From Tricholoma matsutake (Eukaryota; Basidiomycota; Agaricomycetes; Agaricales; Tricholomataceae), in assembly GCA_026075535.2 (NCBI GenBank), contig AP026538.1, positions 5,146,001-5,210,000 on the forward strand: a DNA stretch of 64,000 bases, given 5' to 3'. Of this stretch, positions 1 to 43,811 are shown piece by piece (positions within the stretch are counted from its first letter, which is position 1; each line of letters begins with the position of its first letter). The notes under the pieces were generated by a model that searched no databases, was not told where the DNA came from, and was given only the letters and a program-made list of their open reading frames with translations. The position numbers and the translations under genes are program-made.

Positions 1-1
1 T

Positions 2-592
2 TCACAGTGTGCCTGCGAATTCATCATTGATTTAGATGACCTTCACCAGGAACTTTGGAAACAACTTGCGGCCACTCAAGAACGTTATCAAGGTCCCATG
101 GATAAACATTGGGCACCTGCACCTGACTTCAACATTGGTGATTTCGCTTATGTCACTGCAGAAAATATCCGCACCACCTGTCCCTCCAAGAAACTCTCTG
201 AAAAGAACCACAGTCCTTTTGAAATCATCGCCCGCCCAGGAACTCACTCAGTCACCCTGCGGCTCCTGGATCACATGCAGGCTATTCACCCTGTTTTCCA
301 TGTCTCTCAACTAGAGATACACTCCCCAAACACAATTCCAAATCGAGTACAACCTCCACCTCCTCTGATCACCATCAATGATGAGCTCGAATATGAGATC
401 GCCAAAGTCCTCGACTCCAAAGTCGACAACCAACATCGCTGCAAGATTCTCTACCTCGTCCAATGGGAAGGTTACCAGGGAACTGACAAAGAGACTTCCT
501 GGCTACCTGTTATGGAACTTGACCACGCCCAAGAACTCCTTGCGGATTTTCACACCCACTACATGCAGAAAATCGGACCGTTACCTGCTTAA
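2..592 (+). CDS. Ty3/gypsy pol C-terminus: integrase tail plus chromodomain (5' end outside window)
   Basis: The frame is open from the window edge to a TAA at 590-592 (about 196 codons). It reads the integrase C-terminal segment (DLDDLHQELWKQLAATQERY, then a GDFAYV / FEIIARPG / FHVSQLEI SH3-like region) followed by a chromodomain near 395-570 (YEIAKVLDSK, LYLVQWEGY, SWLPVMEL). In chromoviruses this integrase-fused chromodomain directs insertion to modified chromatin. The integrase core and RT lie outside the window. No stop interrupts the visible part, so this copy is less decayed than most others here. The next 1.3 kb holds an antisense gene and then the PPT and LTR, so this is probably the 3' end of the same element. 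Confidence 0.9.
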   Translation, partial: SQCACEFIIDLDDLHQELWKQLAATQERYQGPMDKHWAPAPDFNIGDFAYVTAENIRTTCPSKKLSEKNHSPFEIIARPGTHSVTLRLLDHMQAIHPVFHVSQLEIHSPNTIPNRVQPPPPLITINDELEYEIAKVLDSKVDNQHRCKILYLVQWEGYQGTDKETSWLPVMELDHAQELLADFHTHYMQKIGPLPA

Positions 593-659
593 AGACAATT
601 CACGTTACTTATTCACTCAGTCTGAACTCAGAACAAACTTTATTGAAAAAAGAATTTTC

Positions 660-706
660 GGGTCCGACCGGATTCCAACGAGCCCTTTTGGATCAGTTCT
701 TAACAG
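660..706 (+). repeat. 47-bp copy of the LTR 3' terminus
   Basis: This segment matches the last bases of the LTR at 2522-2568 (starting GGGTCCGACCGGATTCC and ending GATCAGTTCTTAACAG) with two differences. Both differences fall in CpG sites, where the 2522 copy has CG and this copy has CA or TG. It lies between the pol stop and the antisense gene. It could be the end of a truncated 5' LTR of a separate non-autonomous element, or a terminus duplicated inside one larger element. Confidence 0.75.
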
Positions 707-723
707 TATATCCAACCAGATCC

Positions 724-1738
724 CTACACTACCTCCGCTTCTCCCTCTCCATCTTTGTCATCCTCTCCTCCGACTTCACCACCTTCCTCCGCTTCTCCAC
801 CTTCCCCGCCTTCATCCTCCTCTTCCTCACCCTCACCCTCCTCCACATTGTCTGCCTGCCTTTTTTCCAAATATCTTTGGAATCCCGCACAGTTGTCTCC
901 AGACTGGTGGATCCCATGCCTTTCCTGTCGGGACTCTCGTACTGCCCACTCCACTTCCTCTTTGTCCTCGTCACTCTCCCCCTCGATACTTTCATCCGCC
1001 TCCCACTCTGGGTCCATTGCATCCCGGATCTCCTCCATCGACTCCCTCACCGCTGTCGCCACCTCCCCAAACCCTTTCCTCACCACCTTTACCAGCTGCC
1101 GTAGCAGCTCCGCCACTTCTCCGTTGTTGTCCGGTGGACCTGCTGTTCCTGCTCCGGACCTCACTTTTCTTACTGTTGGGGCCTCCTGCCCCTCCCACAT
1201 GACCTCCTTGCACTTGTGCTTAACGTGCGTGCAGTTATCGCACACGCGTCCCTTCGCACCCATCTTGAAGCACAAAATTTTTTGATATTGGCACCTAAGC
1301 CACTTGTCAGTCCAAAAACATCGAAAGAAAGCCAACTACGCACCTTTTGCAGGGCAAGGCGGCCTGCACCCACACCGGACTCGCCGATTCTTCTGACCCC
1401 ACCTGCGCCCTTGACGTGGCAATCTTCTTCTTCTTTGGGGACTTGCTCCCCTCGGCCTCGTCCTCCAAACCCGCAGCTGCAGCCACCCACTTCTTCTCCA
1501 TGCATTTTGCAGCCGAAGCCTCTTTTTTCTGCGCTGTTGCCTGGCGCGCCTCCTCTGCCTTCGCAGCCTTCTCTGATGCCTTCTGCACATCCTGCGCCCG
1601 ATGTTCCTCCTCCCTTGCCACCTCCTCCAATTCTCTCACCTCCCGCTCCATCTGTTCTTTCATCTCCCACTCCCTCTGTTTGTACTGAGCCATCATTGCA
1701 GCCAATTTCAGTTGAGCGGAGCCTGCTGGGGGGGACAT
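724..1738 (-). CDS. Antisense Cys6-cluster, coiled-coil protein gene inside gypsy element (two exons)
   Basis: Exon 1 is 1738-1344 and exon 2 is 1294-724, joined across a 49-bp intron (1295-1343; donor GTGCGT, branch-like CTGAC, acceptor TAG). The product is 321 aa with no internal stop. Residues about 10-75 are a charged coiled coil (QREWEMKEQMEREVRELEEV). Splicing then creates a Zn2Cys6-like cluster, CKRC-x6-C-x9-CDNC-x6-C, which neither exon holds alone. The C-terminal half is strongly acidic (EEGEGEEEEDEGGEGGE). The gene starts about 130 bp from the LTR and ends 132 bp from the pol stop, tail to tail. The MSPP start at 1738 was chosen as the first ATG preceding the coiled coil. Function is unknown; DNA binding is only suggested by the cluster. 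The cluster spacing resembles fungal binuclear zinc proteins, but the rest does not resemble a typical transcription factor. Confidence 0.65.
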
Positions 1739-1852
1739 TTTGTATAGGTGATGGAAGAAGGAAAACAACAAAATTTTTCAACCAATTGCCGCATTCAGGA
1801 GTCAACCAACTTCCTCCTTTGGACTCAAACCTTCACGTGCCTTGTAGGCTTG

Positions 1853-1870
1853 GCACTAAGGGGGAAATAC
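1853..1870 (+). promoter_or_regulatory. Polypurine tract of gypsy element 1
   Basis: The purine run AAGGGGGAAA (around 1858-1868) lies directly before the LTR start TGTCACGATCC. This is the expected plus-strand primer for reverse transcription, and it fixes the element on the + strand. Confidence 0.7.
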
Positions 1871-2567
1871 TGTCACGATCCATTCCTTGCCCGCTCAGAA
1901 CCTGCAACCTTCCAATCTTTTCCACTTTTCCTAACTCAACTCCTACCGCCTTCGTTCTGGCCCCCTTGCACTGCCCACACTGCTGTGCAGCAGGCCGCTG
2001 TGTACAGCAACCATGGCTGCCTTCCAAGGCTGCTGTCTAGTTTTGCAAATTCGACTATGGATTCCTGTGCGGCCTCTGCTAGGCAATTTATCTACGCAGT
2101 TGAGACACTGCCACAGTTTCCATTTCCATTCTGCTCTTGTTCTGGACTCTAGTATTTAAGCTTAGTTAGTTTCACTTTGTATTCCTCAGTTTGTATATCG
2201 ACACAGACTCGACTTTACCCTGTCAATCTAAAACCTCCTTTTACTCCAACTCCTGACCTCTAAGAGTCTGAACTCCATTCAACTCAACCTCTAGTTCCCC
2301 TCTGAAGTTCTAGTCTCATCTGAACTTAACCTAAGTCCCTCCATACTCCTTCCCGCATTTACCCGCACTCTCCCGCTCCTATCTCTAAAACCTCTACCCA
2401 AAATTAGGACACCAGATGAGGTGAAGGGCACAGCTTCTTACAAGCTGAAGCCAAGTCCTTTTCGTTACCCATCTGCATAATCCGCTACGACCCGACAGTC
2501 TTCCACTCTCAAACACCTGCTGGGTCCGACCGGATTCCGACGAGCCCTTTCGGATCAGTTCTTAACA
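1871..2567 (+). repeat. 3' LTR of gypsy element 1 (about 697 bp)
   Basis: It starts TGTCACGATCC just after the polypurine tract and ends CAGTTCTTAACA, giving TG...CA termini. A TATA-like AGTATTTAAG at 2151-2160 is followed by pyrimidine-rich sequence, consistent with an LTR promoter. Its last 46 bp recur at 660-706. The neighbouring sequence from 2569 is the interior of a LINE RT, so the element probably inserted into that LINE. Confidence 0.7.
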
Positions 2568-2568
2568 G

Positions 2569-4321
2569 AATCCATGACATGCATACTAAGGAAACCAGGA
2601 AAGCCAAGCTATGAAGTACCCAAAGCATACTGTCCCATTGCCCTACTGTGCACTATGGCCAAGGTATTCACATTGGTGATCTCTGAAAACCTCATCTCTG
2701 TAACGGAGCAACACCAACTACTGCCAGATACACACTTTGGAGGAAGACCCTGCAGAAGCATGACTAATGCAGTACATTTGCTTATACACCGGGTCAAGAA
2801 GGCATGGAGAAAAGGGAAAGTAGTATCGATCCTCTTCCTGGACATCAAAGAGGCATTTCCCAATGCAGTAATAGAACAACTCCTACACAACATGAAGAAG
2901 AGATGAGTCCCTGAAACAATAGTAAAATTTATAGAACGACTGCTGAGGGGTCGGTCAATGTGACTGAAATTCAACAATTACATTTCGGAACGGATCCCCA
3001 TCAACAATAGAGTAGGGCAAGGAGACCCGGCATCACTACCAGCTTTTAACTTCTATAATGCAGATCTGCTGGAACTAAGCAACACTCTGCAAGCACTAGG
3101 GTATGTCGATGATGTGATGGTCATGGCTGTTGGAAAAGATTTCGAAGAAATCACTCAGAGCATCCAAGAACACATGGAAAAGGAAGACTGAGCACTCAAA
3201 TGGTCGGCTGGCCACAACTGCAGGTTTGAAATCAGCAAACTAGCAGTAATGCACCTAGGACACTGGAAGACCAAGTCACTGACTGGAAGTATGCGCCCAC
3301 TACACAAACTGAGGCTAACACTTCAGGGTAGGGAAGTTAATATGGTTGACAGCTACAAGTACCTCGGCATAGTCATCGATGACAAACTAACATGGAGGAA
3401 ACATGAAGAAAGGGCCATAGACAGCACTACAAAGTGGGTAATGCAATGCCAACACCTTGCAAGGACAGAGGTAGGACTCTCACCAAAACTAATGCGCCAG
3501 CTCTACATGTCAGTGGCCATACCAAAGATGACATATGGGGCTGAGATATGGTATAACTCCCCAAGGATAATCCCAGGAGTGAAGCAAAGGACAGGATCAA
3601 CAAGGGTCCTACATCAACTAATTAAGTACAGTGAATGGCCACCCTGGCAATAAATGGGGCACTTCATACCACCCTGACTGACACGCTGGACCTACATGCA
3701 GGCATCCTTCCACTAGAGCTAATCATGCTAAAAGCTTGTCACAGATCTATAGTGCAAATATGCACACTACCAGAGCCACACCCGCTACACCACATAGTAT
3801 GTGAATACCACACTATCCATGCAAGGAAACATTGCATGCCTCTACACAAGCTGATGGATCACTTTCCAGAGATATACCCAGATGGAATAGAGAACATAAT
3901 GCCCAATCCATGCTCTCCCACATATACCCACACAGCTTTCACCACAGAGATAGCTGAGGATCAAGACACCTCTATTTGCAACAAAGCTGACAGCACATCA
4001 GAAATCAAAGTCTTCACAGACAGATCAGGTATAGATGGCTGTATAGGAGTGGCAGTGGTAATGTATAGGAGGGGAAGGCACACACCATCCAAAGTGCTGA
4101 GATATCACTTAGGAAGCACAAATGAGTACACATCCTTTGAAGCAGAGGTAGTAGGGGCACTACTAGGTATCTGGATGATCAGATCAGAGCACATAGCAGG
4201 CTGACTCCCGATATCCATACTAACAGACAGACAAGCCCTCATCAAAAGGATCAAGATGTGCAAAGCTACCACCACCCAATATCTGATCGAGAACCTCCTG
4301 ACAACTGCAGATAATGTCAAC
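2569..4321 (+). pseudogene. LINE (Tad-like) reverse transcriptase and start of RNase H, broken
   Basis: Three open stretches in different frames carry RT motifs: YCPIALLCTMAKVF and FLDIKEAFPNAV (2600-2880), the catalytic YVDDVMVM near 3103-3126, and YKYLGIVIDDKLTWRKHEE (3354-3410). An RNase H start (IKVFTDRSGIDGCIG, SFEAEVVGALLGIW) follows at 4005-4180, then TDRQALIKRI. In-frame stops at about 2904, 2960, 3190 and 4202 and a frameshift near 3640 inactivate it. The left end abuts the LTR at 2568. The right end stops inside RNase H at 4321, where a gypsy element begins; the missing C-terminal half resumes at 18843. Confidence 0.9.
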
Positions 4322-4328
4322 ATGATGA

Positions 4329-5341
4329 TGATGATACTCAACCAGGAAACCCAAACAAAACCCACAATAAGGGCTTGAATGGTATAACACTAGTTAGAGA
4401 AAGGTTGCAAGGTGGTACTAAATATCACCGCTGTTACCCAAGGCTAGGGAAACGACTTTAGAGTGTGTCTGATGAAGTTCAAAGAGATTTGAGAGTATTC
4501 GAAGTGCTACAAAGGTGTTCGAGAGAGGTTTGAGAGGTTTGAGGGAGGTTTGAGAGACTTTATAGAGGATGAGGACAATTTCGACGAAGGCTGAGGGTGG
4601 ACTATAAGTATGTAGGAAAGCATCAAGAAGGGATAGACAATATGCGATAGTTTCGAGAAGCTAGTATGAGGAGTTTGAGGAAGTTTGGCATAAAACACTG
4701 AACTTTGAGACTAAGGACTCAAGAGAATGGCTCTTAAATCAGATGATTGGTGTGAGAGGATGATCTATTCTGTCCTTCTAAGTAGCTAGTACAAGGTTAT
4801 ATATGTTTGGGAGAGGTGGTACTTAAAAGGAAATAGAACATGAGGAATACTGAGGCAAGATATAAAACAATAAAGAACTTCGCAAATCATAAAATAAATG
4901 AAAGATGATAAGAAGGCCAATGTATAGTGTCACAATTTATTGTGAGTACCTGTCCTATTGATCCAATATATCATCAAGACATCAAAGTGCCACAGTCGCA
5001 TCCTAAAATCCCATTGTTGCATCTCCTCATGTCTGGTGGTGCTCAATATGTGACACACTAACTCTTACAAAGTGTGCTGCATGTGTCTGAAGGGCGGTAC
5101 AATAAGCATACAGCAGCCGAAGGTGTTCGAGGTGCTGCGAGGTTGTTCAAACTTGCTCGAAGTGTTGTGAAGTTGTTCAAAGTTGTTCAAAGTTGTTCAA
5201 AGTTGTTCAAAATAGTCTCAGAGCGGTCTTGTGAGGTTCATAGGGGTTCATAGGGGTTCATAGGGGTTGGGAGCATGTGTGTTGATGTGTCAATGCCTTT
5301 GGAGATGTTCCCAGAGCTTAGTGCGCATGGTGGACCTATCA
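4329..5341 (-). repeat. 3' LTR of gypsy element 2 (1,013 bp)
   Basis: This is near-collinear with 17330-18842 (minus two inserts), with the solo LTR at 60654-61609, and more distantly with 53529-54670. On the minus strand it starts TGATAGGTCC and ends GAGTATCATCA. Internal short reiterations include GTTTGAGAG and AAGTTGTTCA. No coding capacity was seen. Confidence 0.9.
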
Positions 5342-6174: not shown

Positions 6175-7605
6175 GATGCCACTAACATCATTACAAATTT
6201 CTTTACCAACTTCATTATAATTGTTACAAATATGTTATTAACTTCAATACAACCATTACTACTTACAAACTTGATGAGTTCTTCATCAGTCACTACAGGA
6301 CTTGAAAAAATCCATGAGTTTAAGTAGTAATAGCTTGTTAATACACAGACAGAATTAGGCTGCAAATATAACATTAATTGAAACTGTAAATGCATTGACT
6401 AACAAAGGACTTACAAAGTTAGTGTAGTGCAGTAGCAGCTTGTTGATGCAGTTACTAATATTATTATATTAGACTATAAGTATAGCATAAAGGGGGGTCC
6501 CTGGGTTCATGAGTAATGGTTTGTATTGAACAAGTTTGTGATTGAAGTCAGTAATCTGTTAGTAATAGTTTGTATTGAAGTTGGTAATTGCTTGTAATAG
6601 TTTGTATTGAAGTCAGTAACCTGTTTGTAGTTTGTATTGAGGCAGTTAGTAATTGTTTGTAATAAGTTTGTATTGAGACAGTCACGGTTAGTAATTGTTT
6701 GTATTGAAGTCAGTAAACAACTTTGTAGTGCAGTATTGGAAGCTTGTTGATACTGCCAACCTGTAAATATGACATTTGTTACCCACTGTCAATACATTTA
6801 CTAACAAAAGACTTACAAAATGACAAGTAGTAAAGAGGAAGTCATTACTTCTCTTGTAGAAGGCAAGGGGTTGAATTATGGCTGGAAACCACAAGGTGTG
6901 AAACTAGGTGTCCACTATATCGTGTCAGGCTTTTTTCATGTGCAAAGTCCCTACAACTACAAAAATTGTTACTGACTCCATTACAAAAGTGTTACTGAAT
7001 TCATTGCAAATGGTAATTGACCAGTTACTAGCCTCAATACTAATTGTTTACTTACTTTATTACAAACTTACCTGTTTACAAATTGTTTACTTACTTCATT
7101 ACAAACTGTAATTGACTTGTTACTAACCTCATTACAATTATTTACTTACTTCATTACAAACTGTTATTGACGTGTTACTAACCTCATTACAATTATTTAC
7201 TAACCTCATTACAATTGCTTACTTACTTCATTACAAACTGTTATTGACCTGTTACTAACCTCATTACAAGTTGTTTACTTACTTCATTACAAACTGTAAT
7301 TGACTTGTTACTAACCTCATTACAATTATTTACTTACTTCATTACAAACTGTTATTGACTTGTTACTAACCTCATTACAATTGCTTACTTACTTCATTAC
7401 AAACTGTTATTGACCTGTTCCTAACCTCATTACAAATTGTTTACTTACTTCATTACAAACTGTAATTGACTTGTTACTAACCTCATTACAATTATTTACT
7501 TACTTCATTACAAACTGTTATTGACTTATTACTAACCTCATTACAATTATTTACTTACTTCATTACAATTGTTTACTTACTTCATTACTATTGTTGGCAT
7601 ACTAG
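6175..7605. repeat. Inverted AT-rich tandem array
   Basis: From about 6930 to 7600 a unit of roughly 55 bp recurs (TTACTTACTTCATTACAAAC then TGTTATTGACTTGTTACTAA). From about 6490 to 6720 the reverse complement recurs (AGTAATAGTTTGTATTGAAG). The two halves could fold back on each other. It is inserted in the antisense gene of element 2. No coding signal was seen. Confidence 0.8.
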
Positions 7606-7619
7606 TTTTTTGGGTCCTT

Positions 7620-10060
7620 ACAACTTATCTACTGAGTTTGAGTAATTAGGGTTTATATGTTCTTTTGTATGGTATGTACAAAATAACTACAAAAGAAAAA
7701 ACTAATATGTACAGAAAGTCCCTGGGGCCTCCTCATCATCCATGTCATCTCATCCCCATCATCCCATCATCCCCATTGTCTCAGTTGTGGGTGTATTATA
7801 GTATTGTGTCAGCACATGTCTCTGGCAGTAGTATACTTCCTAAAAATGAACAAAATACATTATTTAGTTGAAAAGAACAAGGAACAGAGAAATGAACTTA
7901 CCTAGGGCCCAAATGATGCAATCATCATTTGGGCCTGCATTGCACCCAAGAGGGTTCATTGGCAGCCATTGGTGGCTCTTGCTGGCATGGGAATGTGCAT
8001 GGGAGTCATGGTGGTGGATGTTGATGGAGTGGAAAGGTGGTAATAGTGAGGTGAAAGGGAGGATGGCATCATCGTTCAAGGTGGTTATTATTCTAAGTTA
8101 ATTCACTTGTATAGAATTAAGTCATGTGAGTGCCCCATGGGGCGCTCTATTCTCACGGTATTTTAATTCACTTAAACATCATCATTTGGGCCCCTTGTAA
8201 GTTTTTATCTTCACTTCTTGTTCTTTTACTTCAGCTAAATTAAGTTTTATTAATTTACAGGTTTTGAGGGCTTCAAAGGCAATGAGTGTATGGCAGGGGT
8301 ATGCCAACCCATGCGGGTATGGACCAAGGGTAGGTGCAGGTAGGGGGTTTGGGTACGCAAGATGCAACCCTCAATGTAAATGGCATGTCACATTGTTTAA
8401 GATGTTCTTTGTTGTTTTGTTTAAACTGACTCTTTTTTTCATTTAGGTTCTATCTATAGTACAACAACACCACAACACCAAAACCACAATGACGGCTACC
8501 ACAGCCACCACACAAGAGACCCAGAACTACCACCATGAGCAACTTCTCGTGGGGTGGGAACAGGAATGGCAACGTGCACCAGATGAAACAGAATGACAAC
8601 AAATGGAACGATGAAATGACAAGATGATGGGGAGACGATGGAATGACAACATAATGATGAGATGACAGGAAACGAGGGGGAGGAGGTAAACCAAATGAAA
8701 AAAAAGGTGGAAGAGATGTCATCTTGGGCCACCAGTAAGTTTTTTCTTTCTTTGCTTGTTTCATGTTCTTTTTACTAACTGGTTTTTAGTTACAAAGCTT
8801 TACTATGGGGAGGAGCAGGGGAAAGAGAAGGGACACAATGATGAGAGGGGGAGGACAAGGATGATGACCAATGTCAAAGCACCCCCAACCACAGCCATGA
8901 GCAACTGCTTGCAGGGTAGAAACAGGGAGCAAGGTGACAGGAAATGAGAGATGAGAGATGAGAATGAAGATGGGGGAACAACAACAACAATGACCAGACA
9001 ACAATGACAACATGGGGATGAGGAGGAGGGGAAGGATGAGGGAACAATTAGAGCGAGGATGAGGACCAGACAACCCAAATGAAAACAGAAGGGGCACGAT
9101 GATGGGAGGGGGAGGGGAAAGGAGAGGGATGATGACAAGACCACGACCCAGCACCCACCCCTGCCACTGTGAGCCACTGCTTGTTGGGGTATTAAGTTTT
9201 TTTTTTAACTTTTGGTGGTTATTCAGCTAGCTGCACCTTTTTACTCTTCTTTAGGACTTTTGACAACAAGGGCTGTCCCAGCCCACCCATGCTCTCCTCC
9301 CCTTGTGAGATTGAATAGGAGGTATCAGAGAGCCCAGTTAGTGGGATAACTAACCACAAGGTAGGTACCTCCTCCCATGTTGCAACCTCCCCAGCTGACG
9401 AAACATGAGTGACAAGACAGCAATCTCCTATGCCCACACCACTGCGAGCCTCTGCTTGCAGGGTGGACAACAGGATGAAGAACAGCAGGACAAGCTGACA
9501 CCACGACACCATCTCCAATTGCTGCCGCGAGCAGCTGCTCGTGGGGTGGAAATGGGGAGCACAACGGGAACAAGGGGGAGAAATAATGACCCCACTACCA
9601 CTTCTTGCCTGTTCATGGGGTGGATCACTGGTGGAAGAACAGGATGACAATAGCCAATCACTGCTGCGAGGACTCCTTGTGGGGGGAGGAAATGTGCAAA
9701 CCAACAATGACACCAACAATGACACCAGAATGATGGGCATGACCCAGCAGCCCCAACTCTCCAACAACTATGATGACGAGAGGAAGACCAGCATGAGGAT
9801 GGCCACCATCATCACCACCACCACCACCTTTACAGCACCCCCAACCACTGCCACAAGCAACTGCTTGCAGGGTGCAAATGGGGAGCAGTAAGGCCAGGGA
9901 TGACAGAGAGGTAGTGGGCACGATGAGGATGACAGGCACGGGGAAATGGCAACAAGGAGACAACAGTGTTGATGCATGATCGGATGACCCCTGCCCCACA
10001 CTTTGCATGGGGGCAGGATTTTTTTTCTTTTCAGTTTACTTGTACTAGTCTGTACCAGGA
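7620..10060. repeat. Palindrome/intron/hairpin module block 1
   Basis: The block holds a palindrome GGCCCAAATGATG...CATCATTTGGGCC (7906-7935) and spliceable intron-like spacers at 8197-8260 (+), 8734-8789 (+) and 7840-7901 (-). It also holds eight variants of GAGCAACTGCTTGCAGGGTG: near 8536, 8899, 9173, 9445, 9527, 9605, 9667 and 9850. The rest is CCACAACC/ACAATGAC-rich low-complexity sequence. Long open frames on both strands are composition artefacts (runs of Ser, Pro, His, Leu). Similar blocks lie at 31790-33780, 47870-48560 and 61680-62460. Confidence 0.65.
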
Positions 10061-22777: not shown

Positions 22778-24266
22778 TGCTTTCCCTGGATCATGTGAGT
22801 GGTGTTCTCTACATACCATAATCTTGCTATCTAACACCATGACAGAGTTAATATTTTTGGCCAATATTTGTCTATTTAGATTCTCCGTAAAACTTTTAAT
22901 CGACATTGAAACAACCTCAGAAACTCCAGTCACAGGTCGCATAGTCAACCAAATTAAGTTCTAAATAACACTTCATCTAGAAAGAGAAAAAATCCTATAT
23001 ATGAATTCAGAATTCCCCCATTGATTGTAACCTGTGATCATGATCATAATGTAAAAGTTGAAGCATGATGATCTGGATTAGTCTCTCCTACTTGTTGGGC
23101 TGAAACCATTTCTTGCTAGTGCATGTTGTAATTTGATGTGAGGGCCTCGTGCACAGTGGAGAGGGTATTGAGTTGGTTGAGAATGGATTGTGTGTGGCAG
23201 CGCTGGGATAGGATGTCATATACACATTGGTTTTGGACCGGCAGAATGCATGTAGAGAAAGGAAGCCCATATATGTGTTAGAAGCAAAGAGAAAAGTATA
23301 CAAACCTCTCCTACGAGCTCGTCATTGTACTCATCAGCATCTTGAATAGGGTTGTAATTTATGGATATGCAAAGGACAGGTTTAGCGAAAATATGTACCA
23401 ATGAGAAGACTAGAAAGTATAAGCAAGTTAGAAATCTATTAATACAATCTGAATCTGTGGTGGCTGACTGCTATGTGGCAATCCCCACTGGCCCAACCAG
23501 TGGGGGGGCCTGCCCCCTTCCCTCCAGATCTCTACCCCAGAGCCACTAGCACCCTCTATAACTTGACAAGGTCCTGACAAAGGCTGAGCTGATCATAGCC
23601 CCCCAATAGTAGGGTTAAAAGCCCTGTGAACTGCGGAGCACCGATCTCAGCACTTTAGTTTCCTACAGTTCACTCCTTGTGTCCCAGCTAGCTGGTGAGA
23701 GGCCGTCGGTGGAGACTGGTCTCAAGTAGCATCCTGGGAGTTTTTCCCAGCTGCATGCACACTGGCAGATGACAGAAAATGTGTGACTGTGATACTGAGA
23801 CTCATGACTTTCATCGAAAATGATGTTTCACTGTGTCTACAATCTAGGTCTAAATAATGAGAGCACTTATACATACGGTGCAAGATATAGTTTTGTTTTT
23901 TACCTGATCTTGGTTGTTGTGGTGAGCACTGGAGGATATGGTGGCGGGAGAAGGGGGTGACATATTGAATGTTTCAATTGCTTGCTAGTAAGTATTGTCT
24001 TCATACTTACAAGTCTATGCATTGTTGCCATGGACGATGTTTTTCCCTAAAATTCTGTATACCTGGATAGGAAGCTCCCTGAAGGGAATTATGGTGAGCT
24101 TGCATCCAACATGAAAGTTGTTGATGGTCAAGAACATGTGATTCAGATCGATAGCCTAGACTGTTGCCAAGAATACGAAGGATACTCAGAGGAGCATTCA
24201 AAATGTGATGTGAAATAGTTAATCCAAGATTAGAAACAATGTTGCATGTCACAATGGATTGACAAG
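22778..24266. other. No recognisable gene
   Basis: Only short frames occur. The stretch may hold the 3' end of the CACTA element. A short inverted motif CCACTGGCCCAACCAGTGG lies near 23487. Nothing else could be supported. Confidence 0.5.
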
Positions 24267-24725
24267 ACAAGGCTCATTCATCTGACATGGGAAGAGAAGT
24301 TGAACCTTGCAAAGGCTTGCACAAGACTAGTGAAAGGGGATTTGGCAGTATCCTGAGATGCACAAGTGAAATCAAGCCTCATTCACTTAGCATGAAACAC
24401 CATATGGATGGCATCACTAGACAACTGTGTGTTCAGAAGGAAAGACTTGCTCATCTGACATGAGAAGGGGAGCTGAGATTTGCAAGAGCTTATGCAAGAC
24501 TAGCAAAAGGGAATTTGGCAACATCCTGAGAGACGCAATTGAAATCAAGCCTCGTTCACTTAGCATGAAACACCCTGCAAGGTATAAGCCTTGCAAGAGC
24601 TTGCAGAAGACTAGCAAGAGGGAGTATGGCAGCATCCTGAGACATGCAATTGAAATCGAACCTCATTCATTTAGCATGAGACACCCTGTGAGGCATACAG
24701 AGGGCATTACTAGACAACCATGGGT
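24267..24725 (+). repeat. Tandem array 1 (imperfect units of about 110-190 bp)
   Basis: About three to four units share GCAAGAGCTTGC, GGCAGCATCCTGAGA, ATTGAAATCAAGCCTC, TTAGCATGAAACACCCTGC and GGCATCACTAGACAACC. The same unit builds the arrays at 35790-36760 (+) and 38450-39095 (-). It stays open in one frame over much of its length, but this appears to be a by-product of the repeat. Confidence 0.8.
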
Positions 24726-24911
24726 TCATTAGCTGTCGATACCAGTGGGAATGAACTTGGACTTATGATGTTCATTGAGAAGGATAGATGTGAACGTTTG
24801 AAGCCAAGTTTCATCCTAAATAACCTGCGGAGAGATCTCTCCTGTGGTTCTCAGGGTGAAAACCTGATTCTCAATGTTGAAGCTGAAGGGAGTTGTGAAG
24901 AACGACAGTGA
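24720..24911 (+). CDS. 63-aa open frame conserved in both arms (hypothetical)
   Basis: It begins MGSLAVDTSGNELGLMMFIE and ends in TGA. The copy at 38446-38255 (-) differs by one residue (VD to VN). No domain, signal peptide or membrane segment was recognised. Conservation may only reflect recent duplication, so coding is uncertain. Confidence 0.25.
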   Translation: MGSLAVDTSGNELGLMMFIEKDRCERLKPSFILNNLRRDLSCGSQGENLILNVEAEGSCEERQ

Positions 24912-25182
24912 CAGCTTCAAGTTCAAGTTGTTGTGCCAGTCACAACATTACATAATGGGCTAACAATGATAAACAAGTAAACATTGAATGTTCAACTTCA
25001 ACTTCAACTTCTTCAAGTCGTCCAAGTTGTTATTGTATTACCTGAAGTCAAGCTTAACTTCATTGAGTAAAACCGTAGGAGAGAACTCTCTGCAGGTCTT
25101 TCTGGACAAAGGTTATCTTCTGGATATGTTATCTTCTCTGCCATCCTGGATTGCATGAAGGTATGCATACCATGCCTATCGA

Positions 25183-25509
25183 TTGATATCATATCTCACC
25201 AAACTAGCAAGCAAAAACCTTCTTCTTACAGGCTTTGTCGCAATATTGTGTTTCTCTCTGATTTCTTGTCTAGGATTGATAATCTTCCTGCTTAGATTTG
25301 GAACACCACCTGCATGTCTTTTGATGCTGCCAATCTCTATGCTCCTCCTTTGTTCTCTATGCATTGTTTGGAAACAGGTAGCTCATGTTGTCACGGAGCT
25401 ACTTCCTGTGCCTACCAATGCACGTCCTTCTGATGCTGCCACCACATGCTATCCTGCATTGCAGAATAATTCTACTTTTATTTATGCCCACTTGTCAAAC
25501 AATGTCTGA
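25183..25509 (+). CDS. 108-aa hydrophobic open frame, copy A (hypothetical)
   Basis: Two strongly hydrophobic stretches (LLLTGFVAILCFSLISCLGL and CLLMLPISMLLLCSLCIVW) could span a membrane. The inverted copy at 37981-37655 keeps the full frame with a few substitutions. GT...AG introns can be drawn around it (GTATGC at 25161), so it may be an exon of a larger gene. No family recognised. Confidence 0.3.
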   Translation: MISYLTKLASKNLLLTGFVAILCFSLISCLGLIIFLLRFGTPPACLLMLPISMLLLCSLCIVWKQVAHVVTELLPVPTNARPSDAATTCYPALQNNSTFIYAHLSNNV

Positions 25510-25907
25510 CCTTGGTGTTTACCAGCTGAAGCTTTTGTGCATGTCTTTTGATGCTACCAACACAGCATAGTGCATATGGCATAGCTTTTGATGAAGGACA
25601 TAACAAAACATAACTACACTACATGGGAACTGTTAAGCAATCGATGTCGAGAGAGATTGGCATTGTGTGTTATCAATATGGAGTAGTTGGTGTCTGAATC
25701 CCACCAAGGTTTCCTCAATCTATGTATACCTCTGCTGGGAATTGAGGTTCTATCCTGTGTTCTTCAGCTGTCTCTAGGTCAGGTGCAATTTCTTTCAGGA
25801 ACCTGGAGGCACATTGCACTGTAAGCCCTCTGGAGAACTCTGACTATGTTTGTGCTCACTGTGAGACTGTCCATAGTGTGGCCATTCTTTCATCCCCCAT
25901 GCTCAAA

Positions 25908-26156
25908 TTAACATAGCTGTGATTCACCCCAGCCTGCAAACCACCATATCTCCAGACCAGACAATGTCCGATTAATTCCTCTGAGAGCTTCATTCCTTAA
26001 GAATAGTCTGTGGAAGCGATATGCCAGTAAGAAGGAGACAGAGTCCCCAAAGTACTCTAGTGTGATGATGGTTTTCCTGATAGGGATGTGGGGGTGGCCT
26101 TTGAGGATGGTAGCGACAATGGGGATCCTGTTGTAGCCATCATGCACAATGGCCAT
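25908..26156 (-). pseudogene. Small-protein family member, frameshifted copy in left arm
   Basis: The minus-strand reading HPHIPIRKTIITLEYFGDSV, SFLLAYRFHRLFLRNEALRG is the same gene as 37045-37314 (+). One base is missing after LRGIN, so the conserved W-S-G-D-x-V-V segment falls out of frame and a stop follows. Its upstream residues (NRIPIVATILKGHPHIPIR) differ from the right-arm copy and resemble the N-terminal side of the gene at 26831-27313. Confidence 0.55.
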
Positions 26157-37044: not shown

Positions 37045-37314
37045 ATGAGCTCTGTTGCCTCCATCGAAGAAATAACTGAAGACCTTGTTGAGAAAACCAT
37101 CATCACACTAGAGTACTTTGGGGACTCTTTCTCCTTCTTACTGGAATATTGCTTCCACAGACTATTCTTAAGGAACAAAGGTCTCAGAGGAATTAATTGG
37201 GACATCGTCTGGTCTGGAGATATGGTGGTTTGCAGGCTGGGGGTGAATCACAGCTATGTTAATTTGAGTGTGGGGCACAAAAGAATGGCCACACTATGGG
37301 CAGTCTCACGGTGA
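37045..37314 (+). CDS. Uncharacterised small protein, family member 3
   Basis: From ATG at 37045 it reads MSSVASIEEITEDLVEKTII, TLEYFGDSFSFLLEYCFHRL, FLRNKGLRGI, WSGDMVVCRLGV and HSYVNL, to TGA at 37314 (89 aa). It aligns with family members 1 and 2. A GTGAGT donor overlaps the end (37311-37316) and acceptors (CTCCAG) lie near 37340 and 37368, so the gene may continue into a further exon. It sits between two inverted arrays, as if it were cargo. The N-terminal 17 residues differ from the left-arm copy. Confidence 0.5.
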   Translation: MSSVASIEEITEDLVEKTIITLEYFGDSFSFLLEYCFHRLFLRNKGLRGINWDIVWSGDMVVCRLGVNHSYVNLSVGHKRMATLWAVSR

Positions 37315-37654
37315 GTACAAACATAGTCAGAGTTCTCCAGAGGGCTTACAGTGCAATGTGCCTCCAGGTTCCTGAAGAAATTGCACCTGACCTAGAGACA
37401 GCTGAAGAACACAGGATAGAACCTCAATTCCCAGCAGAGGTATACATAGATTGAGGAAACCTTGGTGGGATTCAGACACCAACTACTCCATATTGATAAC
37501 ACACAATGCCAATCTCTCTCGACATCGATTGCTTAACAGTTCCCATGTAGTGTAGTTATGTTTTGTTATGTCCTTCATCAAAAGCTATGCCATCTATGCC
37601 ATGTTGGTAGCATCAAAAGACATGCACAAAAGCTTCAGCTGGTAAACACCAAGG

Positions 37655-37981
37655 TCAGACATTGTTTGACAAGTGGGCATAAATAAAAGTAGAATTATTC
37701 TGCAACACAGGATAGCATGTGGTGGCAGCATCAGAAGGATGCACATTGGTAGGCACAGGAAGTAGCTCTGTGACAACATGAGCTACCTGTTTCCAAACAA
37801 TGCATAGAGAACAAAGGAGGAGCATAGAGATTGGCAGCATCAAAAGACATGCAGGTGGTGTTCCAAATCTAGGCAGGAAGATTATCAATCCTAAACAAGA
37901 AATCAGAGAGAAACACAATATTACGATGAAGCCTGTAAGAAGAAGGCTTTCGCTTGCTAGTTTGGTGAGATATGATATCAA
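37655..37981 (-). CDS. 108-aa hydrophobic open frame, copy B (hypothetical)
   Basis: Inverted copy of 25183-25509 with the same length and the same two hydrophobic stretches. A few residues differ (KN to ES, VA to IV, L to P). The frame is retained in both copies, which weakly supports coding. Confidence 0.3.
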   Translation of the reverse strand: MISYLTKLASESLLLTGFIVILCFSLISCLGLIIFLPRFGTPPACLLMLPISMLLLCSLCIVWKQVAHVVTELLPVPTNVHPSDAATTCYPVLQNNSTFIYAHLSNNV

Positions 37982-38254
37982 TCGATAGGCATGGTATGCA
38001 TACCTTCATGCAATCCAGGATGGCAGAGAAGATAACATATCCAGAAGATAACCTTTGTCCAGAAAGACCTGCAGAGAGTTCTCTCCTATGGTTTTACTCA
38101 ACAAAGTTAAGCTTGACTTGGGGGTAATACAATAACAACTTGGATGACTTGAAGAAGTTGAAGTTGAAGTTGAACGTTCAATGTTTACTTGTTTATTGTT
38201 GTTAAGCCCAGTATGTAATGTTGTAACTGGCACAACAACTTGAACTTGAAGCTG

Positions 38255-38446
38255 TCACTGTCGTTCTTCACAACTCCCTTCAGCTTCAACATTGAGAATC
38301 AGGTTTTCACCCTGAGAACCACAGGAGAGATCTCTCCGCAGGTTATTTAGGATGAAACTTGGCTTCAAACGTTCACATCTATCCTTCTCAATGAACATCA
38401 TAAGTCCAAGCTCATTCCCACTGGTATTGACAGCTAATGAACCCAC
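38255..38446 (-). CDS. 63-aa open frame, copy B (hypothetical)
   Basis: Inverted copy of 24720-24911 with one residue changed (MGSLAVNTSGNELG). No function can be suggested. Confidence 0.25.
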   Translation of the reverse strand: MGSLAVNTSGNELGLMMFIEKDRCERLKPSFILNNLRRDLSCGSQGENLILNVEAEGSCEERQ

Positions 38447-38449
38447 AGT

Positions 38450-39095
38450 TGTCTAGTAATGCCCTCTGTATGCCTCACAGGGTGTCTCATGCTAAATGAA
38501 TGAGGCTCGATTTCAATTGTGTGTCTCAGGATGATGCCATACTCCCTCTCGCTAGTCTTCCGCAAGCTCTTGCAAGGTTTATACCTTGCAGGGTGTTTCG
38601 TGCTAAGTGAACGAGGCTTGATTTCAATTGCATCTCTCAGGATGTTGCCAAATTCCCTTTTGCTAGTCTTGTGTAAGCTCTTGCAAATCTCAGCTCCTCT
38701 TCTCATGTCAGATGAGCAAGTCTTTCCTTCTGAACACACAGTTGTCTAGTGATGCCATCCATATGGTGTTTCATGCTAAGTGAACGAGGCTTGATTTCAC
38801 TTGCGCATCTCAGGATACTGCCAAATCCCCTTTCACTAGTCTTGTGCAAGCCTTTGCAAGTTTCAACTTCTCTTCCCATGTCAGATGAACAAGCCTTGTC
38901 TTCTGAACACATGGTCATCTAGTGATGCCCTCTATATGCCTCGCATGGTGTTTCATGCTGAATGAATGAGGCTCGATTTCACTCATGCATCTCAGGATGC
39001 TGCCAAACTCCCTTTTGCTGGTCTTGTGCAAGCCTTTGCAAGGCTCAACTTCTCTTCCCATGTCGGATGAATGAGCTGAGCCTCTGTTTGGGTAT
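38450..39095 (-). repeat. Tandem array 3
   Basis: About four to five imperfect units are the reverse complement of arrays 1 and 2 (CTCAGGATGCTGCCAAACTC, GCAGGGTGTTTCGTGCTAAG). The outer edge lies near the variant GAGCCTCTGTTTGGGTATA. It is the outer end of the element 35790-39095. Confidence 0.8.
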
Positions 39096-42848: not shown

Positions 42849-43328
42849 ATGGTGACTAGACGACGAGTCATTGACCAGTCACCAAGAACAAACAGACTGC
42901 CAGGGCAACCCTCTTGGGAATGCCCCCATGGGATCATATTCTGGTTGATGAGAGATGACTGGGTAAGAAGAGTATCCTCGACTTGCCCAAAGTGCTGCCT
43001 CTATGCATGGAGAAGCACAAAGATGGATTTAGGCTGGGTAAAGGCACAATTTGAAGAATGGTGCTTCGAGGGAGAGTTGGATGATGATGACTACTTCCCT
43101 GAAGAATTCTACCTTGACCGCAATGGCCTAACCCCAGGCAGAAGACCACTGGTGGGAATTAACCCACCACTGTGGAAAGACCTTCAGTGGAACACCCACT
43201 ATGATAAAGAAAGCAGATTTGAGCTGGCAAGGCAGCTCTTATTTGGACAACATGGAGAACTGGGGACGCTGCTGTGTTTCAACCAACACCCCCACACATC
43301 AGTACCCCAGACCACTGAGCACAACTAG
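42849..43328 (+). CDS. Accessory ORF downstream of gypsy pol (unknown)
   Basis: From ATG 42849 (MVTRRRVIDQSPRTNRLPGQ) to TAG 43326-43328, 159 aa with no stop. Features: WECPHGIIFWLMRDDWVRRV, a CPKCC cluster, LGWVKAQFEEWCFEGELDDD, PEEFYLDRNGLTPGRRPLVG and SRFELARQLLFGQHGELG. It lies between the pol stop (42695) and the 3' LTR (43828), in sense. I do not recognise the family. The intact frame within a decayed element is notable. A C16 run (42812-42827) lies just upstream. The start could be further 5', but no ATG is available there. Confidence 0.5.
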   Translation: MVTRRRVIDQSPRTNRLPGQPSWECPHGIIFWLMRDDWVRRVSSTCPKCCLYAWRSTKMDLGWVKAQFEEWCFEGELDDDDYFPEEFYLDRNGLTPGRRPLVGINPPLWKDLQWNTHYDKESRFELARQLLFGQHGELGTLLCFNQHPHTSVPQTTEHN

Positions 43329-43339
43329 GTGCGAAATCA

Positions 43340-43715
43340 ATTGTTCGCAAAGATGTTAAACTACCGACTGTCTGCAAAGATATTAAACTACCAACTGTCT
43401 GCAAAGATGTTAAACTACCAATTGTCTGCAAAGATGTTAAACTACCAATTGTCTGCAAAGATGTTAAACTATTGATCATCCGCAAAGACCTTAAACTACC
43501 AACCATCTGCAGAGACATTAAACTACCAATCGTTCACAAAGACCTTAAACTACCAACCATCTGCAGAGACGTTAAACTACCAATCATCTGCAAAGATGTT
43601 AAACTACTGACTGTCTGCAGAGACATTAAACTACTGATTGTCCACAAAGACATTAAACTAGCAACTGTCTGCAGAGACAATAAACTACTGATCATCCGCA
43701 AAGATGTAAAAATAC
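43340..43715 (+). repeat. 27-bp minisatellite encoding a 9-aa repeat
   Basis: About 14 tandem units of GTTAAACTACCAATTGTCTG + CAAAGAT. The unit is nine codons and one frame stays open through the array, giving KD[VI]KLP[TI][VI]C repeats. It lies between the accessory ORF and the PPT. It may be a C-terminal extension in another frame or simply non-coding. Confidence 0.9.
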
Positions 43716-43811
43716 AATGATACCACACAAACCTGCCAACATATCCAGACCACACTCAATCAGACCACAGAAGAGGAACAAAGATTTGGGTCGAAGTGTG
43801 GAACTTTTGAC

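Follow-up and report, generated by a model that had tools for sequence, protein, structure and literature searches.

The first 2567 bp of the 64,000-bp stretch of Tricholoma matsutake DNA analyzed here (the window) are the 3' end of a Ty3/gypsy chromovirus, recognized by its chromodomain, its paired long terminal repeats (LTRs) and its 5-bp target duplication. Between pol and the 3' LTR, on the minus strand, the element carries a second gene, which is split by an intron and whose spliced product contains a cluster of six cysteines. This antisense gene is a standard part of the element lineage, and substitution patterns indicate that its spliced product is under purifying selection. We are highly confident in the anatomy, splicing and selection of the gene taken together. 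That this accessory gene encodes a regulator of the element, probably one that binds DNA, is suggested by analogy, and we give it an even chance.

A spliced gene antisense to the element

The initial annotation of this region had proposed a minus-strand gene at 1738-724 that is open over 321 codons once a 49-nt intron is removed, with a cysteine cluster that only splicing assembles. An alignment of 32 copies (the window copy, L009-L028 and L030-L040) bears out both claims. The parts of the gene are as follows:

724..1738, minus strand: antisense gene, two exons, 321 aa once spliced, ATG at 1738-1736 and stop TAG at 726-724 (alignment; ratio of nonsynonymous to synonymous substitution rates, dN/dS)
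1344..1738, minus strand: exon 1, with a coiled-coil-like N-terminus, GSKSPKKKK and the first cluster cysteine (alignment)
1424..1441, minus strand: SPKKKK, a basic motif and candidate nuclear localization signal (sequence)
1295..1343, minus strand: 49-nt intron, GTGCGT..TTAG, with a branch-like CTGAC at 1310-1306 (alignment of the 32 copies)
724..1294, minus strand: exon 2, with five cluster cysteines, a predicted helical middle and an acidic tail (alignment; low-confidence model)
1210..1351, minus strand: C-x2-C-x6-C-x9-C-x2-C-x6-C cluster, one cysteine from exon 1 and five from exon 2 (sequence, alignment)

The cluster and the reading frame are joined across the intron by splicing alone. 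In all 32 copies the intron starts with GT and ends with TAG, and a CTRAY string lies 16 nt before its end in 29 of them and 15 nt before it in two (L036, L040), having been lost in L027. Intron lengths range from 46 to 57 nt and leave a remainder of 1, 0 or 2 on division by three in 20, 10 and 2 copies, so reading through would shift the frame in 22 of the 32. Between the window copy and seven divergent copies, the 5' part of the intron is 47-59% identical, exon 1 71-80%, exon 2 71-79%, and the last 17 nt of the intron (1295-1311) 82-94%, above the exons. The conservation of these 17 nt exceeds what a branch site and an acceptor explain. A drifting intron body with kept ends is the pattern of a spliced intron.

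The cysteines are kept as well as the splice sites, as the initial annotation had expected of a real gene. The exon-1 cluster codon (TGC) is present in 32/32 copies, and in an exon-2 alignment of 36 rows (L042, L043 and L045 were excluded because their matches are short) every row has four of the five exon-2 cluster cysteines and 35 rows have the fifth.

The spliced-junction string was not found in the T. matsutake genome, either exactly or with one mismatch. Two mismatches gave nine matches, and a control read backward gave 0. One of the nine, at C4:2668213, was considered as an intron-less copy and rejected, as the fetched sequence keeps the intron. The absence of spliced-junction copies is consistent with the genomic RNA being transcribed from the other strand, and with the earlier proposal of an antisense transcript separate from it. 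The intron would survive because the genomic RNA comes from the opposite strand, on which this stretch is no intron.

A standard part of the element lineage

A search of the genome with the first 282 residues of the product gave 182 matches, and the 150 of these that were listed represent 134 gene places. Pol neighbors were sought among the 150 pol matches listed out of 5825 first-look candidates, and among the matches listed 59 of the 134 places had one. In all 59, the antisense gene and pol are on opposite strands with their 3' ends facing each other, and 153-336 bp separate the matched parts; none has the two genes on the same strand. The initial annotation had described the window gene as tail to tail with the chromodomain pol and inside the polypurine tract (PPT) and LTR; the tail-to-tail arrangement is the one found at every pol-paired place. 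For fifteen further places, a DNA match to window 1-2600 encloses the gene and takes in the LTR along with some or all of the pol end or tail (13 of these matches start at window position 1-16, one at 280 and one at 469), and another seven have pol and LTR in fetched sequence (L030, L032, L033, L035, L037, L039, L040). Element context is thus confirmed for 81 of the 134 listed gene places (59 + 22), the remaining 53 being outside this check; at those 81 the matches sit antisense beside gypsy pol or LTRs, as had been anticipated, and are not free-standing host genes.

The 11 fetched places with divergent open reading frames (ORFs; L030-L040) all have pol end and LTR sequence, as full or partial matches, and the PPT string was found by pattern in 10 of them, L035 being without it. 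Six pol copies were picked for having no listed ORF beside them; all six turned out to have the antisense ORF, in some cases damaged, and no pol copy of this type without the antisense gene was found among the copies examined. No relative of the antisense product was recognized outside T. matsutake among the 7995 candidates sharing most words that were scored, or among 6 in another search. The one annotated relative is a partial T. matsutake model, L208DRAFT_694466, and annotated models of the antisense product such as this one probably represent genes of the element, not of the host.

Purifying selection on the spliced product

We calculated dN/dS with CpG codons masked for ten intact copies chosen from the 32. 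For the antisense gene it is 0.12-0.22 between seven window-subfamily copies and L036, L038 and L039, and 0.16-0.28 among the latter three. The pol end is similar, at 0.12-0.30 between subfamilies. In the within-subfamily pairs listed, the antisense gene gives 0.37-0.95, values in which post-insertion decay weighs heavily.

The synonymous share is greatest in the coding frame in six of seven exon comparisons; all other frames have stops. In exon 2 of the window copy versus L036, a mirror frame has a synonymous share of 0.32 against 0.28 for the coding frame, yet it holds a stop. An ORF on the sense strand at the gene's place was considered and ruled out, as the antisense frame alone is stop-free in 7/7 exon comparisons. 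The window product shares 79-85% of its amino acids with L036 and L038 over residues 128-166, and 58% over residues 167-282.

Re-assortment of the antisense gene against pol

Distances and tree comparisons indicate that recombination has given at least two copies, L041 and L038, a new pairing of pol and antisense gene: a window-type pol with an antisense gene of the other clade. Their pol distances to the window copy are 0.069 and 0.095 and their exon-2 distances 0.271 and 0.261, respectively. In the pol tree (35 rows) both fall on the window-subfamily side, with an approximate likelihood ratio test (SH-aLRT) support of 98.8. The exon-2 data (36 rows) reject their grouping with the window subfamily, both together (log-likelihood 126.9 lower, p = 3e-105 in the approximately unbiased (AU) test) and singly (p-AU 1e-9 and 2e-7), although such AU values are too sharp because the groups were picked after the distances were seen. 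With the LTR data (36 rows), and subject to the same caution, the pol-type placement is rejected for the two jointly (p-AU 0.038) and for neither singly (0.615, 0.194).

Along the sequence, L041 is 90-96% identical to the window copy up to about 700 and then 64%, the change falling at the beginning of the antisense gene; from about 700 onward it is 85-97% identical to L046. The change in identity between L038 and the window copy is more gradual, from about 400. When the window subfamily is compared with L036, L038 and L039, the antisense gene has a synonymous divergence of 0.73-1.16; the pol end gives 0.06-0.51 when that subfamily is compared with other copies. This suggests either that the antisense alleles are older than the pol they accompany or that the antisense gene has a higher mutation rate.

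Element anatomy and candidate signals

The remaining features of the element and its edge are:

2..592, plus strand: C-terminal end of gypsy pol, to the pol stop (ORF, Pfam)
639..644, minus strand: AATAAA after the antisense stop, candidate polyadenylation signal (sequence; end of the string seen in aligned copies, with variants)
660..711, no strand: private insertion consisting of the final 46 bp of the LTR and the bases that other copies have just after the 5' LTR (alignment)
1739..1870, no strand: block between the antisense ATG and the LTR, with CCAAT at 1782-1786, CACGTG at 1834-1839 and the PPT; candidate antisense promoter (alignment, sequence)
1858..1870, plus strand: PPT, AAGGGGGAAATAC (sequence)
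1871..2567, plus strand: 3' LTR, 697 bp, TG..CA (sequence)
2568..2572, plus strand: target-site duplication GAATC (identical five bases before the 5' LTR)

The 196 aa at the end of pol match SH3_Tf2-1 with 51.2 bits (cut-off 30) and Chromo (PF00385) with 29.8 bits (cut-off 25.1) in Pfam. The 5' LTR of the window copy lies outside the window, near C1:5141068, and its start was read in L029 with GAATC ahead of the LTR. Since GAATC flanks both this start and the 3' LTR end, the insertion is C1:5141068-5148567, about 7.5 kb, placed from both ends with C1:5141701-5146000 outside the sequence read. Twenty related copies (L009-L028) were fetched as 10-kb pieces, and 18 of them have two same-strand LTRs longer than 600 bp, L010 and L016 being dropped. 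These 18 are 7691-7746 bp long, and their LTR pairs differ by Kimura two-parameter (K2P) distances of 0.036-0.064, with 0-2 transversions and many of the transitions of CpG type. The 5-bp target duplication is perfect in 13 of them and has one mismatch in the other 5.

The block of 132 bp at 1739-1870 is 82-89% identical between the window copy and seven divergent copies, among them L039, which is without about 60 bp. We read its CCAAT and CACGTG as candidate promoter motifs. A pyrimidine run precedes the antisense ATG, and the AATAAA at 639-644 may be a polyadenylation signal. The same block has, at 1819-1831 on the minus strand, a B-box-like string, GGTTCGAGTCC in some copies and GGTTTGAGTCC in the window, which is similar between subfamilies. 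A tRNA remnant was considered here and not supported: ARAGORN finds no tRNA; Rfam gave a single match with an expectation value (E) of 4.2, elsewhere than this string, and folding z-scores are -0.05 to -1.64.

The insertion at 660-711 is missing from the other 31 aligned copies, which have a GGATCCGACCGGATCC-like string there instead. We considered this LTR-end repeat as a capture scar left by a gene caught between two LTRs, and rejected this because the repeat is private to the window copy (1/32 aligned). Perhaps it arose by template switching at a similar short string in the ancestor of the window copy.

Elsewhere in the window, pieces of a LINE-like reverse transcriptase and RNase H, judged by eye, adjoin the gypsy element at 2574-4600. 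A large inverted pair in several pieces lies at 24251-25930 and 37240-38915, with 94-97% complementarity and 11-13 kb between the arms. There are also a 27-bp tandem array at 43257-43769 and a 55/56-bp repeat array at 7009-7639.

A candidate regulator of the element

Our preferred reading of the antisense gene as a regulator is based on analogy, the cysteine spacing and the basic motif only. A separate antisense RNA polymerase II transcript would start in the 132-bp block or in the 3' LTR and would be spliced and polyadenylated. The spliced product, with its acidic tail, would enter the nucleus, probably bind DNA there, and regulate the element through LTR transcription or through the balance between expression and silencing. 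The SPKKKK stretch resembles, we assume, a nuclear localization signal. We take C-x2-C-x6-C-x5-12-C-x2-C-x6-8-C to be the spacing of fungal Zn2Cys6 DNA-binding clusters, and in the window copy the product conforms to this rule. The initial annotation's description of the cluster as Zn2Cys6-like therefore stands as far as spacing goes; the family assignment does not, as described below. As a separate observation on the coiled-coil-like part of exon 1, L043 has at least 16 match copies at 18-bp spacing at about 979-1366, an expanded in-frame repeat.

Several results weigh against this reading. The window protein has no listed match to PF00172 (Zn_clus) in Pfam. One of six members has a listed match, at 15.1 bits against a cut-off of 21, and it covers profile positions 3-15 of 39, a third of the profile, on the second half of the cluster. 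Because this match is partial and below the cut-off, we do not file the product as a member of the Zn2Cys6 family. The exon-2 structure model has a predicted local distance difference test (pLDDT) score of 48 overall and about 31 in its cluster part, from which the first cysteine was left out, and the sole match in a sequence search of the PDB was 8qkd, a designed coiled coil. Only 17 of the 32 aligned copies retain a spliced ORF that reaches 300 aa, and in L030 and L031 exon 1 is 11 bp short, a shared change that disrupts the spliced frame. A special coupling of the antisense gene to U3 was considered and not supported: in 15 chosen copies the partial correlation is 0.46 for LTR 1-130, and 0.44 and 0.43 for LTR 261-390 and 391-520.

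A more specific version is that the lineage encodes its own zinc-cluster transcription factor from the spliced antisense gene, a self-regulation like that by HBZ of human T-cell leukemia virus type 1 (HTLV-1) that arose independently, with subfamilies exchanging the regulator against pol. We consider this possible, and hold it tentatively. If true, regulator and polymerase evolve as separable modules.

The rival that survives best, although we find it rather doubtful, is that the antisense protein, instead of regulating transcription, helps a later step as an accessory factor, for instance in nuclear import, in targeting the integration complex to chromatin or in binding RNA. The basic motif would suit such a role, GSKSPKKKK with its SPKKKK being unchanged in the six divergent products compared, as would a basic cluster with 9 K/R versus 1 D/E in 33 residues and a helical, coiled-coil-like part that could bridge proteins. 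What argues for a regulator instead is the cysteine spacing, which is that of fungal DNA-binding zinc clusters. Published antisense products are also discussed as nuclear regulators, as far as the accessible text of these sources goes (PMC11963269, PMC7264820). The present observations are compatible with both roles.

Another explanation is that an ancestor of the element captured a host Zn2Cys6 gene in antisense orientation, intron included, and that it still acts mainly as a host gene. Antisense capture is compatible with an intron of spliceosomal type and a cysteine spacing of fungal type, but no host paralogue or relative from another species was recognized among the matches listed (53 of the 134 places being outside the context check, and the fungal coverage of the protein database being unknown), and the LTR-end repeat, the possible capture scar, is private to the window copy. 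We regard this explanation as unlikely.

It is less probable still that the antisense transcript acts as RNA, through double-stranded RNA, small RNAs or self-limitation, with the reading frame being incidental. The antisense gene overlaps the genomic RNA over its full length, and antisense RNA roles have been proposed for retroelements in the part of the source available (PMC7264820), but dN/dS of 0.12-0.28, a frame kept across the intron and kept cysteines point to a protein.

Finally, that the intron is unspliced, with copies read through and the six-cysteine cluster accidental, is barely credible: its length is a multiple of three in 10/32 copies, L023, L034, L038 and L039 are among the copies open across it, and conservation of the 17 nt ending at the acceptor exceeds that of the exons, but 22 lengths shift the frame and both ends are kept in 32/32 copies and the branch-like site in 31/32 while the 5' part drifts.

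Comparison with known elements

Both plants and one fungus offer precedents for an antisense gene in this position, the fungal one being brtn of the element Boty, reportedly described by Zhao et al. in 2011. Boty and Boty-like elements of Botrytis cinerea have, as described in the accessible parts of the sources, a chromodomain gag-pol and the antisense gene brtn (PMC7264820, PMC8365987, PMC4227169, PMC5987419). They are thus like the T. matsutake element in being fungal, in the chromodomain gag-pol, in the one extra antisense gene and in a 5-bp target duplication, which those texts report for a Boty solo LTR. They differ in having an ascomycete host and, comparing by description only, in that the same texts mention no intron or cysteine cluster. 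The lack of a described fungal counterpart with a Zn2Cys6-like cluster, put forward in the initial annotation, stands as far as the accessible texts go, in which we found none with an intron or six-cysteine cluster; the position of the gene has a fungal precedent in brtn.

In plants, according to the accessible text, Retand-lineage elements have antisense TRP28 ORFs with predicted DNA binding and a proposed regulatory role; unlike the T. matsutake element they are non-chromoviruses of plants with a TRP28 domain, and that text mentions no intron (PMC11963269). The TRP28 domain, PF04195, is not among the Pfam matches listed up to E 10 for the antisense product and the members. The gene23 of maize Grande is described as an accessory gene that lies antisense in the interval from pol to the 3' LTR, has a promoter upstream of it and yields a nuclear product; it differs in its plant host and in that the text available describes no intron, the likeness being one of description (PMC7264820). 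HTLV-1 HBZ is, in the portion of the source available, likewise spliced and antisense at the 3' LTR end, and its product is a transcription regulator, but it belongs to a retrovirus, encodes a basic leucine zipper (bZIP) protein, and has its transcript starts and the start codon of its main form in the 3' LTR; we claim no homology (PMC3185765). The gypsy element marY1, also of T. matsutake, is set apart by its total length of 6047 bp and its LTR of 426 bp, as given in the accessible text (PMC10211490).

We found no report of an intron-bearing or six-cysteine antisense gene in a fungal element in the literature, most subscription papers being out of reach, and a survey of LTR elements in fungi (PMC3248453) uses neither "antisense" nor "zinc" in its main text. 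Given the antisense genes known at this place, the novelty here lies in the presence of an intron and a cysteine cluster, in the host being a basidiomycete and in the evidence of selection.

The role of antisense accessory genes in LTR retrotransposons is stated to be unknown in the accessible text of two papers (PMC11963269, PMC7264820). The basidiomycete case described here offers many copies, a spliced frame, a recognizable cysteine cluster and clear purifying selection, and therefore makes this role directly testable, in a fungal parallel to the accessory genes of plant elements and some retroviruses.

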